Below, in pieces: positions 18,208-37,920 of a stretch of 64,000 bases of DNA. The position numbers and the translations under genes were made by a program. This stretch comes from Spiroplasma kunkelii CR2-3x (GTDB taxonomy: Bacteria; Bacillota_I; Bacilli_A; Mycoplasmatales; Mycoplasmataceae). The stretch is from positions 744,001 to 808,000 of the forward strand of contig NZ_CP010899.1 of the NCBI RefSeq assembly GCF_001274875.1. Direction: 5' to 3'. The first letter of the stretch is position 1. Each line of letters starts with the position of its first letter. The notes beneath the pieces were generated by a model. It did no database searches, was not told where the DNA came from, and saw only the letters and a list, made by a program, of their open reading frames with translations.

Positions 18208-19167
18208 TTAACTAAAACTTATTTTAATACTACCAGTATAGTATTCTGATTTATCATAAGCAGTAATTGTTCCACCTTTGTTATCAGGGTTAATTTCTAA
18301 ATATAAATCATTTAATAAAACACTTAGTCGATTTAACTGGCTAACAAAATTAACACTAATAAACATCATCATTACTTGTAAAATATTTACTTTTGGTAAT
18401 TTACCTAAATTTGTTGTTAACTTCATTTGTCCTAAATCCTCTTTTACTATTGGAGGTTTAGGTGGGACAACAGAAAAAGACACTTTAACTGAACCATAAT
18501 AATCTGTTCTTGGGTTATTATCTTCTGACCAATGGTCTTTTCCTGAAATTAAAATTGCTCCAGTTTGATCAGGTTCAATCATAATTTTATCAACTTTATC
18601 AATTTGTCGGTTTCATATTTCTGATGTTTGTGGTCCAATAAAATACTCACCAAACTTATCTAATTCTGAAATAAGTTGCATATTGTTAAAAATAGTGGCA
18701 ATTAAAATTGTTTTTGGTCGTGCATCAGTAATTTGTCCTAAATCAATACTCTTTACTTTATCAGCTAAATGGCTGGAAGTTGTTACTATTTTATTAATTT
18801 TTATTGTATTTAAATTTGTTCCATCACTAAAGTTCAATTCATATTGACCATTACAATACAAATCAATTTTATCAATTGGTTTTGATTGATTATTAAATTT
18901 ATAATTTTTTATTAACTGATTAAATTTTCATTTTGTTCCTTGAAATAATTGCGCTAATTGCCGGAATAATTCAGGAATAGTTTGTTTATTATTTTGTGGA
19001 TCAATTTTTTTAAAATCAACTCCAACAAAACCAGCTACTTCAACTGGCAAAACTGGTGGATCAACTGGAATATTATTTCAATTATCATTTTTAGTACAAC
19101 TAACTACAGACATTACTGGTCCTGAAACTAGAATTCCAACGGCAATAGTTGCTAATAATTTTTTTAT
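18208..19167 (-). CDS. Surface lipoprotein with spiroplasmal repeat domains, ATA start
   Basis: 319 residues. A signal segment (KKLLATIAVGILVSGP) leads to VVSC, a lipobox Cys near residue 23. Then come repeats that begin DLGQ and end (Y)YGSVKVSFS or YYTGSIKISFS: residues about 149-235 and 242-319. The frame has no ATG, GTG or TTG at its beginning; the only codon properly spaced from AAGGAGG is ATA at 19167, an allowed rare start in table 4 and perhaps a mutated ATG. It starts 12 nt after the giant permease stop, so it is co-transcribed and may be a binding partner of that transporter. Confidence 0.7.
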
Positions 19168-19179
19168 TTTAATTCCTCC

Positions 19180-22100
19180 TTAATCCGCATTCATAATTGC
19201 AATCAATGGATTAATTCGATTCATATTGAATCAACTAATTAAATATGCAATAAAGTATAATAATAATTCACTTACAATTGCAATAAATGGAATCATGACA
19301 TTCATAAACAGTGGTAAAACTATTCCAATTCGGATTAATATCATATTAGAAATAATTAAGAATAATCATCCAAAACCAAAACCTGTAATTGTCATTATTA
19401 CAATAATAGGAATATACATTCCAATAACTAATTTTGTGATATATCGATTTCGATATCCTAATACTTTCATTGTTGCAATAATTGTTTGGTTTTCTGCAAT
19501 AATAATATTACTTGTTAAAATAATAATTATAAAACTTAATACAAACGAAATTCCAATAATAAAGAAGATAATTCCATTAACTGCTTTTGAAATATTTCCT
19601 AAAATTGCTTGTGCTGAAGCAATTGGCATTAAACTGCCAAAAGTACTATTTGCATATGATGGATAAGAAATTTCACTTCTAATACCACCATTTAAACCAT
19701 AAAAACTATAGTCACCAAATAATTGACTTGTTCCTAGTCCTGCTTCAATATCATCAATTTTAGCACTATTAGAAATTTTATAATTAAAAATCGGATATTC
19801 ATTTTCAAAGACAGCAATTCAATTAACTGAACTTTGATGTACGCTTCAATATTCAAGAAACTTATTTCATAAGTTATTAACAGGTGTACTTGAATGGTCT
19901 TTAATAAATTTTTCTAACAAGTTTAAACTCTCTTTTCTTGATGGTGTTAATTCAGGATTCTTCCTGATAAATGAATTCATTCATTCATTTAAAAACAATT
20001 GTAATAAATAATTCCGTGTTTTATCATATTTTAGTAATTGTTGTGCCCTTTCTTCATTAATTCAAGCTCGTGGTGAACCATATTGATTAGTAATACCAAC
20101 AACTGTAAAAGTTTGATTGTTCATTTGATTACTTACTCGATAACTTCCATCATTAATTTTATTGTTTAAAATTGATGGTTTTGTAAAATTTGGGTCAAGT
20201 GCATCAATTTTACTTTCTAAAACATATTCATTATTTTCATCTATAACCTTATTTTTATATTTATTATCACCATTAAACATTAATTTACCAACTCGCCCTT
20301 GTGCTTGATCATCATCACCTGTTACATCACTTCCATCTCAACCTTGTAAAATTTGATCAGAAATAACACCTTGATTCCTATCAACTAATTCTTTGCGAAT
20401 CAAATACGGACTAATTTGATTTCCAACTGTAACATTTAATCGTTTAGCTAATGATTCATTTAAAACAATATTATTATTTGCTGTAAATAATTTTTCATTT
20501 AAATTCGCACCATTTTTATTAGTTAATTCTTGGTTTTTAAATGTACGATTAATTCCGTAAATCTTAAACTTAATACTATTTAATTCAGCATTAATCATTG
20601 TTCCCCGATCATCTGTTAATGGATTAAACGGAATTACTCCGAAGGTTAAATTAAAATTACCATTGTTTTGATTAAATGCTTCTTGCATTTTTAACCGAAC
20701 AGTTTGCGTAGAACGTGAATATACTCCTTGAATAAAACATTGATTAACATTTTCTACAAAGTAAGCATAAATTCAATTATATAAATCATACATTGGTTTT
20801 TTTAAACTTGTATTAAAGTTACTTCCTGTTGCTGAATTTAAAACATCATAAAACGATACCGACAATGGTTGTTCTAATGCTGAACGAAAATGATTATTAG
20901 CTAATGTAATCGTTGGATTTCCTTCTCCAAAATCTCGTTTATAATCACTTTGGGTAAAAATATTGTTTATTAACTTATCATTTAGATTTAAATTTCCTCG
21001 TGAATTAAAATAATCTGAACGTTTAATGTTTAAACCAACAGTTTCCCGATATTTTCAATAAAATAATCGAAATTTTTCTAAAATATTAATATGTTCACGA
21101 GCTGTTTCTGTTGTTCGCAAATATTTTTCAATAGTTGATTTTGTTAAAAGATTTAGAGCAAAATCATTGTAATCACCTCATGTCGTACTACAAATTGCTT
21201 TGAATAAACCCGGATTACTTGAAGTTAATTTATTACTTTGCAAAAATTCTTTTGAAATATTACTATATAACAATGATCGCATATCATCTGCTTGATAAGT
21301 TGGAGAAAAATTTTCAGAATTAATTTGCCCTGTTTCAAAATCAGTAAGATATTGATTAACATCTGTTGTCATATTTGTATTAGTTAAAAAACTATTTTTA
21401 CTATCTCATGGTTTTTGACTTGGATCATATGTTCGCAAAAAAGTTGTTGGTAAATTATAAATCGGACTATTATATTCAAGTAGGGTTTTATAATTATCTC
21501 CTTCGTATGAATAACGAATATTATTTTGTAAGATAATTGGAATTGTTGTTGATACCGTAATCATAATGGTACTAATAATCATTGTTAAAGATACCCCTAC
21601 CATTTTTCCAATTGAATTAGATAATTGTACTGATTGAAATCGTGCATCAAATGTTTTGCAAATTGCAAACATTTTATAAACAATTTTTTTAAAACGACCA
21701 TGTGAAACTGTTTTTTCTTTACGAATTAATTGTAGTGGTGTTCTTGAAACCATCATAATTGTTCCACTAATCATTGTGACACAAATTAGTAAAGCAAAAA
21801 TAAATAATACACAAGTTATTAATGCTAATGGTGCAAATACAAAATTTCCATATGGTAAATTAAAATATGAACCAAATAAATATTTAACAGTAAATTGGCC
21901 ACTAATTCCCGTTCCATAACCAACTATTCCCCCAATTAATGCAATCATTAATGGATAGGAAATATAACTAAAGGTTAATACACAACGACGATATCCTAAT
22001 GCTTGTAACAATCCATTTTGTGGGCCAGTTGCATCAATTTGTCGACGAACAACTAAAATTAATACAAAGAACGAAATAATTAGTAAAATTGTAATTAAAA

Positions 22101-23256
22101 TATAAGAACCACTAATAAAATCACTTAATGTTGATGTAAAGTATGTAATTCGTTTTGCAAATTCATAACGATTATCTGTCCGAAAAGTAGCAATTGGTAA
22201 ACCATTTGATAGTGTTTTAACATAATATCCATTTAAACCAATATGTTTTCCCTGTTCAGTATTTAAATAATTATTAATTGTTTGACTATAATTACTTCGC
22301 ATTTGGTCAACTTTTGTCTGTTGAAATTTTCCAATATAATAAATTTCTCGTTCTAATTGACTTTCTGGAATTAAAATTTGTTCTGTTAAATCTAACTTTG
22401 TTACAGGATATTTATTACCAACTGTATCTTCAACTAAGCCAAATAATCGCGGATCTAAATATGCAATTCCTTCATTTTTCATATTTGGAAACGGATGTCC
22501 TGCATCAATAATTGGTGTAACATAATCCGCTGATTGTCCAAACCCAACCACTCGAAACCAATTTTCATTTGAATATGGTGATTTTGGCAATCATTTATTA
22601 ATATCTTCTCTTTCATATGAAGTTAAATCAACACCTTTTAATTCACTATCAGCAACTTTAATTGTTGTTCCATATCTATCGGGTTGTAATCGAATAATAT
22701 CATTAATTTTAATTTTATTTTTACGAGCAAACTCAGGCGTCAAATAAATCCAATGCATTGTTTCTTCATTAATCGATAATAAATATTTCATATAAAAACT
22801 TAACGGCATTCCATTAGCAACAATAAATTTATCAATTTCTTGATAAGGATTTAATGTTACTGCTTTAATAACTTTATTTTTTTCCAAACTAAATGTTCGT
22901 GCTTCAACACGATTATAAATAAAATGTTCATTTCAATTTTTTAATTGTTCTTTAATAAATTCTAAAATTGCATTTTGACGAACCCCACTATCTGTAATTT
23001 TTTCAAACTGATCTGATTCCCCATTTGAATTTTTAACATAAGTAGTATTAGTAAAACTAACAACAAAATCATGTTGATTACTTAATTGTTCAGAAATAAA
23101 AGTATTATAGTTATTATCTACTCGTTGTTTAGAAACTTCAATAATTGTAAAAATAAAACTAGTCAAAAATACTAAAACAACTAAACCAAAAAATTGAATT
23201 TTATTTTTAACCGTATTTTTAAAATTGTTTTTAAATAATAACTTAAAACATCTCAT
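19180..23256 (-). CDS. Giant FtsX-like ABC permease
   Basis: 1358 residues in one unbroken frame. It starts MRCFKLLFKNNFKNTVKNKI with the first membrane segment at residues 20-40. A large extracytoplasmic domain follows, then FtsX-type helices at about 385-420, 440-470, 475-505 and 535-560. A second domain of about 600 residues follows, then a final trio of helices at about 1210-1350 with PLIAIMNAD at the end. FtsX/MacB permeases transmit ATP-driven motion to outside partners. No ATPase gene is adjacent. The first 45 codons recur, broken, at 34014. Followed by the lipoprotein at 19167. Confidence 0.8.
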
Positions 23257-33971: not shown

Positions 33972-34013
33972 ATTCAAATATTAACAAAAGAGAAGAAGAA
34001 AGAATGTGGAAAA

Positions 34014-34150
34014 ATGACAGGTTTTAAGTTATTATTTAAAAACAATTTTAAAAACACGGTTAAAAATAAAATTCATTTTTTGGTTTAGTTGTTTTAGTAT
34101 TTTTGACTAGTTTTATTTTTACAATTATTGAATTTTTTAAACAAGGAGTA
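34014..34150 (+). pseudogene. FtsX-like permease N-terminal relic
   Basis: MTGFKLLFKNNFKNTVKNKI matches residues 2-20 of the permease at 23256. A one-base loss after KNKI shifts the frame. The rest (GLVVLVFLTSFIFTIIE) is legible to about 34140 and then ends at the phage DNA. The spacing to the previous relic also matches the intact locus. Confidence 0.8.
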
Positions 34151-34151
34151 G

Positions 34152-34236
34152 AGCATCTTCAAACTTAACAGTTGAGTATTTTAATAAGTTATCATCGGTA
34201 TTAAATACTTGGCCACCTTTTCCTAGGCCTTGTATA
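34152..34236 (-). pseudogene. Inverted fragment of a phage capsid gene
   Basis: Read on the minus strand this encodes QGLGKGGQVFNTDDNLLKYS, nearly the same as residues of the capsid gene around 35335-35420 but on the opposite strand and with several substitutions. It is the trace of a second, different phage copy. Confidence 0.7.
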
Positions 34237-34253
34237 CTACAGAGTTAATAAAA

Positions 34254-34655
34254 ATGGCACAAACAAAAAGTAATTTATCTAAAAAATCAATAACTAATAA
34301 ACCTAAAATAAAAAATAAAAAAGTTAATAAATTAGAATTAACTGTTAGATTACATGAAAATCCGATTAAAACTAAAATTAAGGAACTGGTTGCGGGGGGG
34401 GGTGTTGAAGTTGATGCTTGCTCTGCTAAATGTAAATGAGAGGGATTAAATTATTTAACATTATCAATATATAATCCATTGATTTTAAATGAGTTTTTGA
34501 AATTAAAAAAAGATGATGAAATAAAAATTAAAGGCTCAGTTTTTAATCAGTTAAATATAAAAACTAAACGCTATTTTTTATCTTTTAGGGTAGATAGTTT
34601 TGAAATTATACAAAAAGCTATTAGAAAAAGAACAAATACAAATATTAAAAAATAG
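34254..34655 (+). CDS. 133-aa phage protein with G9 tract
   Basis: MAQTKSNLSKKSITNKPKIK: a basic N-terminal tail, then beta-rich sequence (KLELTVRLHENPIK, LNYLTLSIYNPLIL, DEIKIKGSVFNQL) as in OB-like folds. A run of nine G at about 34393-34402 codes AGGG and is the longest G-tract I see in this AT-rich window. First gene of a three-gene capsid cluster, 12 nt before the scaffold gene. Function unknown; could bind single-stranded DNA. Confidence 0.6.
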
Positions 34656-34667
34656 GAGTAAAAATCA

Positions 34668-35126
34668 ATGGCATTAAAAAATGTAAAATATGTTCTTATC
34701 AATGAAGATAATGAACCAATTAAAAATGAAGATGGCAGCTTAGATATTAAAACTGCTGAAATTATTTTAGAAAATACTGATGAAGTTGAAGAATTTAATG
34801 CAAGTAATTTAGAAAATAGTAATCAACAATTAACCGAATTACAAACAAAAAATAATGAATTAACTTCACAAATTGAACAACAAACAATTCAATTAAAACA
34901 AATTGAAATAATTGATTTTATTAATTCTTTAACTGATAATGAATAATTTAAGAATGTTTTATTAAAATCTTATGACATTACTGATGATATTGAAGTTATC
35001 AAAACACAATTGCAAAGTGTTTATGATGAATTAATTAAGGTACAAACAGTTAATACTGGTGGAATACCAAAAACAAAAGAAAAACAAAACAATATTTTAG
35101 ATACAGACAATGTATTTAATAAATAG
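34668..35126 (+). pseudogene. Phage scaffold-like protein, one nonsense codon
   Basis: MALKNVKYVLINEDNEPIKN leads to a long coiled coil (LENSNQQLTELQTKNNELTS). TAA at 34944 follows NSLTDNE; the same frame goes on KNVLLKSYDI to 35126 with no other break. Position just before the capsid gene and the coiled-coil, acidic character are typical of phage scaffolds. AATAGGAG lies before the start. Confidence 0.6.
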
Positions 35127-35143
35127 AAAGAAGGAATAAAATT

Positions 35144-36295
35144 ATGGCACAAAATCCACAAAGAATTTTTGGTGATATTGTAAACCAAGCAACAGTTAAT
35201 GATAAAGAAACATTTGAACAATGATACTTAAAAACTTATCAACAAAAATTAAGCTGAGAAGCATTATTTGCTTGACTAGATTCAAATAAATTTAGTTTAA
35301 AATATAAAATAAAGAAAAATATTAAATATAAACAAGGTTTAGGAAAAGATGGGCAAGTATTCAATACAGATGATAATTTGTTAAAATATTCAGCAGTAGA
35401 ATTTGAGGATGGAACTGTTGTATTAGATACAATTTTACTTTTTACTCGTAAATTAGACCCCATAGAAAGTGATTTTAACCCTAATCTTTGAGCTGCTGAT
35501 ATTGAACAAGCAATTGATACTGAAGTTGCTTATAAACGTAATAAAATTTTAGAAATTATTAATAAAGGAGAAGTTACAACTATTAAAGGAAATAAAGCAG
35601 ATGATACAAATGCTTTACAAATCCATGATGAAATTATGGATAAAATATATGAAAATGGTTTTACTCCATCAGAAACAGTTGTCTTGGGTTCAGCAAATTT
35701 TATCCGTGGAATTCGTAATAAATTACAGTTACAACTTGGAGCAAATGACCAAATTAACAGTGTAATTTCAACAAGTGGAGCAATGAAAACCGTTGAAGGA
35801 ACAACATACTATATGGTTCCTAAAAAATTACCAATTATTAATGAAGATGGTTCAGAAGGAACAATTAGCCTATTACCAAATGGTGTTAATGCAATCGCCT
35901 TTAAATTTAGCAAAAAATATGACCCATTAATTTTGCGTAAAAAAGACCATACCCCATTAAGAATTGGTCCTGCTGGTTTAGGTACTGGTATGGGTAATAC
36001 TTTAATTATGGAAAGAATTTTAGAATTAGGTGGAGCAGTAGTTGAACCCAAAGCAATTATTAAACATAATTATTTACAACCCTTATCAACAGTTATTACA
36101 CAACCTAATTTAGGTCAAATAACAATGGCAGGCAATACACCAACAACAGCAGAATTAGAAACTGCTATTAAAACAAAAAATACTAGTTATCAAACTGGAG
36201 ATGCAACATTCACTAATATTACATCTACTGGCGCATTAGCAACTGGAAATCCAAATAAGTATAGTGGAACAGTTTCTTTAATTTATTCAAAGTAA
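35144..36295 (+). CDS. Phage major capsid-like protein with C-terminal surface repeat
   Basis: 383 residues, intact, three UGA Trp codons near the N-terminus. Residues 1-315 have a capsid-like pattern: N-arm, then a long core (TEVAYKRNKILEIINKGE, NGFTPSETVVLGSANF, HTPLRIGPAGLGTGMGNTLI). Residues about 320-383 form a separate domain: NLGQITMAGNTPTTAELETA ... KYSGTVSLIYSK, the same start and end pattern as the repeats of the lipoprotein at 18208. AAGGA before the ATG. Follows a scaffold-like gene. The capsid call rests on context and sequence character. Confidence 0.65.
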
Positions 36296-36489
36296 GTAGC
36301 GCCATAGATATTCACGATAAAATTACAAGTGTAGTTAGTATTTAATGCTCAATGTTCGTGGGTAATTTCATCTTGTCCAAGTGTGTATTTAATCAATCTA
36401 TTTTCAATTTCTTCTTCATTTTCTTTATTACATGTAAAGCAATAACCCCAATATCTTTTTTTTAAACAAAGTTTCTTTTTCATAGTCAT
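36283..36489 (-). CDS. 68-aa CxxC protein, HEHW family
   Basis: MTMKKKLCLKKRYWGYCFTC contains one CFTC knuckle; it ends with ITHEHWALNTNYTCNF. Shares the ITxEHW segment with 15403-15525. Its last codons overlap the end of the capsid gene on the other strand. A 45-bp inverted repeat lies 26 nt upstream. Confidence 0.5.
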
Positions 36490-37323: not shown

Positions 37324-37920
37324 ATGGATAAGGTTAAATTAGAGCAATTATTTATTATTATCAAAAATGTTTTTAAAAAATAATGGTAAGCAGAATATTT
37401 TTGCAATTGCTAAATGTTTGAATAGACATAGTAGTACTATTTTACGAGAAATTAATAGTTTTAAAACGATTGAAGAATATAGTCCTTATAAGTCAGATAA
37501 AATGTATTATGAGAAAAGAAAAAAGAATAATAAAAGATGTAATTTTAGAGAAGAACAGATTAATTTTATGAAAATTAGACTTAGTAAATATCATGATTCT
37601 CCGAAAGAATTTATTTATCATTATTTTTTGAAATTTGAAGTTAAATTTCCGGTTTCTGTTAAAACATTGTATAAATGAATTTGTTTAGGTGAATTTGGAT
37701 TAAAAAAGGAAAATTTATGTTATAGTGGTAAAAAAATTAAAACAAAAGGAAAAAAAAGATAATCGCGGTCAATTAACTAATTTTAAATCAATTTGAAACA
37801 TTTAAAATAAACTTTCTAATGTTGGATGATTTAAAATGGATACTGTTGTTGGTAAAAACCATCAATCTTCTATTTTAACCTTTAATTAAATATATGAATA
37901 GTGAATTAAGAAAATTATTT
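37324..37920 (+). pseudogene. IS30 transposase type B, broken
   Basis: MDKVKLEQLF then a slip; the frame from 37367 (MFLKNNGKQNIFAI) keeps the DNA-binding half to VKTLYK, reads through a UGA, then slips at the run of A near 37757. A deletion joins MDTVVGKNHQSS directly to PLIKYMNSEL. The catalytic Glu is again Lys. Closely related to 7205-7904. Confidence 0.85.

Follow-up and report, generated by a model that had tools for sequence, protein, structure and literature searches.

Ig-like accessory domains are found on the heads and tails of phages, where some of them are added by programmed frameshift (T7 10A/10B and similar cases), and in many phages a C-terminal accessory domain stabilises the capsid lattice. 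In Spiroplasma, spiralin (PF05215) is the major surface lipoprotein and a lectin. Ig-like phage adhesins were described to bind epithelium (PMC13370021), and a depositors' note on one capsid record of Spiroplasma phage MaM-2019a (UXX42158 and relatives) reads P22 capsid (HHpred) plus PF05215 Spiralin, so that a Spiralin domain on a capsid is not in itself new. The comparisons presented here suggest that several unrelated Spiroplasma phage head proteins have exchangeable ends of host-lipoprotein type, and that phage heads may be coated with host-type adhesive domains.

The window (the whole stretch of 64,000 nucleotides of Spiroplasma kunkelii CR2-3x that was analysed) contains a capsid-like open reading frame at 35144-36295 (+), which encodes 383 amino acids in genetic code 4, the Spiroplasma code, and has the C-terminal end NLGQI...KYSGTVSLIYSK, exactly as given in a preliminary description of this DNA. 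The features of the locus, and the cellular lipoprotein with which its C-terminus was compared, are the following:

34230..34655 (+), upstream phage ORF with no assigned function; its order relative to the capsid gene is kept in intact copies.
34242..36339 (+), prophage remnant of 2.1 kb, 99% identical to G000:C1:1360356-1362450, a fuller copy.
34668..35127 (+), scaffold-like gene, interrupted in frame by a stop codon at 34944-34946; intact copies encode 152 aa; match to phrog_233 head scaffolding with E 0.03-0.04.
35144..36067 (+), capsid-like body, aa 1-308, family A; other Spiroplasma genomes have bodies 75-95% identical, of which some continue into a different C-terminus and some have none.
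36080..36292 (+), LGxI module, aa 313-383 of the capsid-like protein, a swappable C-terminal domain with homology to surface-lipoprotein repeats.
36289..36295 (+), A_AAG_TAA at the stop codon of the capsid gene, the proposed -1 slip site, found in 12/12 loci with an intact extension.
36289..36345 (+), shortened remnant of the -1 frame extension (KVSSAIDIHDKITSVVSI*); intact copies have about 220 codons, and homology to an intact copy stops at 36339.
18208..19167 (-), lipoprotein of the cell in which a module profile recognises two divergent LGxI modules, at about 18469-18771 and 18211-18444.

The window copy is a decayed prophage remnant, with the -1 extension cut after 18 codons and the scaffold-like gene stopping prematurely; the system, whatever its role, works from other copies. 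Immediately upstream of the remnant, at 34131-34232, codons 64-97 of the capsid gene are present in inverted orientation, a sign of local rearrangement. By eye, a piece at 34010-34150, ahead of the phage remnant, resembles the beginning of the 1358-aa permease gene (19180-23256), and an ORF adjoining the remnant (37367-37762) looks like an IS30-type transposase, recognised by eye alone.

We named the C-terminal module LGxI after its motif, since it is otherwise unnamed; it spans 68-80 aa and has conserved L-G and Y-x-G motifs close to its start and its end, respectively. When 60 genomes of the family were searched, the capsid tail (residues 310-383) matched 16 tandem repeats in a lipoprotein of the same genome with 60-65% identity (E about 1e-21), and the identity to these repeats is 74.5% at the DNA level. 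This lipoprotein (L034 2060-5818, G000:C3) is encoded on a 20.5-kb contig; it has 1252 aa, carries a lipoprotein signal and is made of 16 LGxI modules that hardly differ from one another. The preliminary description had related the capsid tail to the lipoprotein at 18208-19167, and a direct BLASTP between these two is not significant (E 0.35), so that a likeness seen by eye was insufficient alone; nevertheless, the kinship holds through intermediates. A module profile built from 60 copies, with the window lipoprotein left out, scores 98.9 bits against the window capsid tail and finds the window lipoprotein with 23.5 bits (E 4.4e-6), whereas the best of 2000 shuffles reaches 11.2 bits and the reversed sequence 3.4 bits. 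A direct match also links the window lipoprotein to L020, another lipoprotein with the module (33% identity over 98 aa, E 5e-7). The frame of the window lipoprotein opens with ATA and its first ATG is at 19113, so that the signal peptide (19114-19167) precedes the first ATG and the start may be lost or unusual.

The LGxI module is present in 30 of the 296 sampled genomes of the class, in 9 genera, mostly in tandem-repeat ORFs, and those that were inspected in full are signal-bearing surface proteins. In one lipoprotein, three modules stand ahead of a GH18 chitinase-like domain (L021 919-2688, G040). Ten equal-scoring module matches lie in regularly placed ORFs of 202 codons on two contigs of another genome (G017:C1 and G017:C2), apparently an amplified gene. 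In the tree of modules, the tails of the capsid proteins group as sister to the repeats of the 1252-aa lipoprotein, within a set of lipoprotein modules; together with the 74.5% DNA identity, we read this as acquisition of the capsid tail from a host lipoprotein, a direction that is probable. ScARP was considered as the source of the module and rejected on repeat length. As to the earlier idea of a virion that displays a host-type surface domain, homology and tree agree that the tail is a surface-lipoprotein module, while its position on the surface of the virion and a role in attachment or mimicry are putative. The shared cassette, the -1 extension with its Spiralin-like domains and the decayed state of the window copy go beyond that description.

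Beside family A there are three more families of capsid-like proteins, B (424-430 aa), C (442 aa) and D (615-616 aa), with about 25% identity among them. No relation of family A to families B-D was detectable (profile comparison E 0.11), and treating all of them as one capsid family is unsupported. Nevertheless, the LGxI tails of families A, B, C and D are 71-99% identical to one another, most of them at least 90%. The module and the extension that follows it form a cassette of about 868 bp, with 92-99% DNA identity between different capsid genes and sharp edges, at -217 nt (the first base of the module) and +650 relative to the capsid stop, and with no DNA similarity in the bodies; the +650 edge is explained by a -1 frame that is open downstream of the stop. 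Holders of this cassette are phages of the window genome, G015, S. citri and S. phoeniceum P40, and several prophages are present per genome. C_456 belongs to family B (over 2.4 kb, its DNA is 92% identical to that of the B gene), and C_459 starts with the family-B N-terminus. Elsewhere, family-A bodies end in the LGxI tail, in a different tail of 100 aa or, in distant relatives, in none, and related capsids without any tail were found in G042 and G033. The tail is therefore an added domain and not the P-domain of the capsid, an ordinary part which the preliminary description had allowed it might be. A distant capsid with about 35% identity (L050 7737-9131, G005) has a divergent LGxI module followed by a long charged coil of EAKAKQ type. 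No relatives of the window capsid, of its tail or of families B-D were found among viral contigs, and family A was not found among phage records. As judged from these alignments, the ends of the capsid genes are modular and have been exchanged as a cassette, and we consider this anatomy (module, cassette and lipoprotein origin of the domain type) to be very probable.

In S. poulsonii MSRO, the PmM2021 MAG, G018, G024 and G025, a single Spiralin-like domain, fused in frame, forms the end of the family-A capsid. In this S. poulsonii group, family-B capsids have the Spiralin-like tail in common with family A, with edges at -293 and 0 and 90-93% DNA identity. Against the PF05215 gathering cut-off of 25 bits, the in-frame tails reach only 17-20 bits (E 1e-3), and the -1 extension, which encodes two Spiralin-like domains, gives no match. 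A profile built from the in-frame tails and the -1 extension (A8) nevertheless matches three true spiralins with 21-33 bits, the best shuffled spiralin scoring 8.5, and the reference true spiralin was confirmed by Pfam. At the level of these profiles, both the capsid tails and the -1 extension show homology to the N-terminal part of true spiralins. A single family uniting the LGxI module and the Spiralin-like domain is unsupported (profile comparison E 0.13).

In 12 loci, the -1 frame stays open for 175-224 codons (219-224 except in one disrupted locus), beginning shortly ahead of the capsid stop. Across the first 115 codons of these 12 loci, it contains 0 stops, compared with 9-17 in the other frames, and its first ATG, GTG or TTG is at codon 40 in one locus and at codon 105 or later in the others (range 40-191). 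Its pN/pS is 0.47, and 0.28 across the first 38 codons, which points to conservation of its coding sequence. The two frames meet at TCA AAG TAA G, and, since the conserved frame is open and has no early start, we propose a programmed -1 frameshift at the A_AAG_TAA site, which we consider likely from this sequence pattern. The tRNA-Lys would slip from AAG to AAA, the stop codon would become GTA, and the -1 frame would be read on. At this junction the canonical X_XXY_YYZ slippery heptamer is absent, and A_AAG_TAA would permit the slip of one tRNA only, at the stop codon; the RNA downstream of the site shows no obvious strong stimulatory structure, and no peak of invariance at the site rises above its surroundings. 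The extension is truncated in two capsid copies, that of the window and that at G000:C1:446526. In the latter (L036 9523-10674), it is cut and replaced by repetitive AAATTAGCACC-type sequence, which resembles pentapeptide-repeat DNA.

The preliminary description had also called for a comparison of folds. AlphaFold predicts residues 311-383 of the capsid-like protein as a separate domain (pLDDT 81-94) with the order strand-helix-strand-strand-strand, and the repeat of the window lipoprotein only tentatively, with a pLDDT of 50, as a helix followed by three strands, which would be the order of the capsid tail. The structural neighbours of LGxI are all weak, mostly the Unique domain of streptococcal Siglec-like adhesins (Z about 4) and Rib domains (Z 3). 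Ig-like Pfam models gave no match, PDB sequence searches and a Foldseek search of the PDB gave nothing significant, and Foldseek against viral models returned a single match (E 4e-4), to an unnamed protein of 170 aa.

Family B corresponds to the capsid as annotated in the records of the 19-kb phage MaM-2019a from S. poulsonii, where it carries a Spiralin-like tail and where its gene adjoins a coiled-coil scaffold-like gene and lies downstream of the terminase and portal genes. According to a later paper (PMC12453411), DNA from phage-like particles was the material from which the phage-like contigs of these S. poulsonii strains were assembled. There are thus good grounds to regard family B as a phage capsid. 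That family A is a major capsid protein, possibly of HK97 fold, is suggested by gene order, the shared cassette, the analogy with family B and a weak match of the body to the phrog_422 major head protein (E 0.15-0.21), all of which are consistent with a capsid: the order of scaffold-like gene, capsid gene and next structural genes is the same in the intact loci and in phage MaM-2019a, the scaffold match itself being weak. The AlphaFold prediction of the family-A body stays below a pLDDT of 50, and the body was left without a model because its alignment is shallow.

Four other explanations were weighed. The 383-aa protein could be a phage-encoded cell-surface protein instead of a capsid, and, in fact, phages of the group encode a secreted protein with four LGxI modules beside the capsid gene, directly upstream of the scaffold and capsid genes in MaM-2019a (L142 8956-9984; L144 9579-10607). 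This secreted protein is a possible nearby donor of the module and likely a surface-changing accessory gene. The 383-aa protein, however, has no signal peptide and no lipobox, its gene is preceded by a scaffold-like gene, its body is found with other tails, and family B, in the equivalent place, was linked to the P22 capsid by its depositors; we therefore regard a cell-surface protein as quite improbable. That the resemblance between tail and lipoprotein arose by chance in AT-rich, low-complexity sequence could appeal to the non-significant direct BLASTP, but the identity to the lipoprotein repeats, the DNA identity and a profile match far above the shuffles already refute it. The -1 frame could also be a separate gene or a dying remnant, as suggested by the NCBI annotation, in which a portion of it appears as a hypothetical protein of its own (L001 21479-21820), and by the two truncated copies. 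The absence of stops and of early start codons in the 12 loci, the pN/pS of 0.28 in a stretch that lies ahead of any start codon and the in-frame fusion of a homologue of the extension to the capsid in the S. poulsonii group all speak against this explanation, and we hold it to be unlikely.

The main rival to a display slot is plain stabilisation: the tails would be a cement or stabilising decoration of the capsid, a non-adhesive and easily borrowed fold, and the cassette would have been homogenised by recombination between co-resident prophages. Such a role would agree with the C-terminal domains that serve lattice stability in many phages, with the ample opportunity for recombination that several prophages per genome provide, and with the weakness of the structural matches of LGxI. 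Yet related capsids exist without a tail, two domains that are not homologous occupy the slot, as would be expected of display more than of a specific contact in the lattice, and both domains are those of surface lipoproteins. On balance, stabilisation is a possible but doubtful alternative.

The reading that we prefer, with a probability of roughly 0.6 for the whole model, is that of a major head protein of a tailed phage with an interchangeable C-terminal display slot for an adhesive cassette. The body of the 383-aa protein would end at about residue 308 and be followed by the slot, which in the cassette holders named above would contain LGxI in frame and then, after the slip, two Spiralin-like domains, and in the S. 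poulsonii group one Spiralin-like domain as an in-frame fusion. By analogy with frameshift-added domains elsewhere, the frameshifted form may represent a minority of the subunits. LGxI and Spiralin-like domains are both building blocks of surface lipoproteins of the host, the probable source of the LGxI module, and the cassettes would then have spread between otherwise different phages by recombination. The most likely role would be that of an adhesin on the head surface, whose weak binding to the targets of host lipoproteins (insect glycoproteins) or to the spiroplasma coat would raise the encounter rate. More tentatively, and rather speculatively, the cassette may be a capsid "costume" of phages of insect-borne wall-less bacteria, in which spiralin-like lectin domains are added through a stop-codon frameshift, virions adhere to those insect tissues to which their host also adheres, and unrelated phages exchange cassettes in keeping with the surface repertoire of the host lineage.

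If display is true, phage heads would be linked to bacterial surface adhesins, and phage particles in insects are predicted to bind the targets of spiralin or of related lipoproteins, so that a test of head-borne adhesion in an insect symbiont becomes directly feasible. The locus is in addition a natural case of domain swapping, in which recombination edges coincide with protein modules, and it exposes unannotated putative frameshift extensions in phages of Mollicutes.

The Spiroplasma tails have in common with the Ig-like accessory domains of other phages an extra C-terminal domain on a major structural protein, a minority form proposed to arise by frameshift, movement between unrelated phages and a proposed role in adhesion; they differ in being surface-lipoprotein modules of the host genus, without an Ig-like Pfam match, and in that module and extension move as one recombination cassette. 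With the ScARP or sarpin adhesins of S. citri (PMC3485318), they share the character of repetitive surface proteins of the same hosts, although the sarpin repeats have 38-42 aa (PMC3485318) and the LGxI module 68-80 aa. In comparison with spiralin itself, to the N-terminal part of which the capsid tails and the -1 extension appear homologous, the tails have neither signal peptide nor lipid anchor, stand on a capsid protein and remain below the Pfam cut-off. The closest described counterpart, the MaM-2019a capsid (UXX42158 and relatives), consists of a family-B body with a Spiralin-like tail and no LGxI module, and belongs to another family than the window protein, which ends in the LGxI module.
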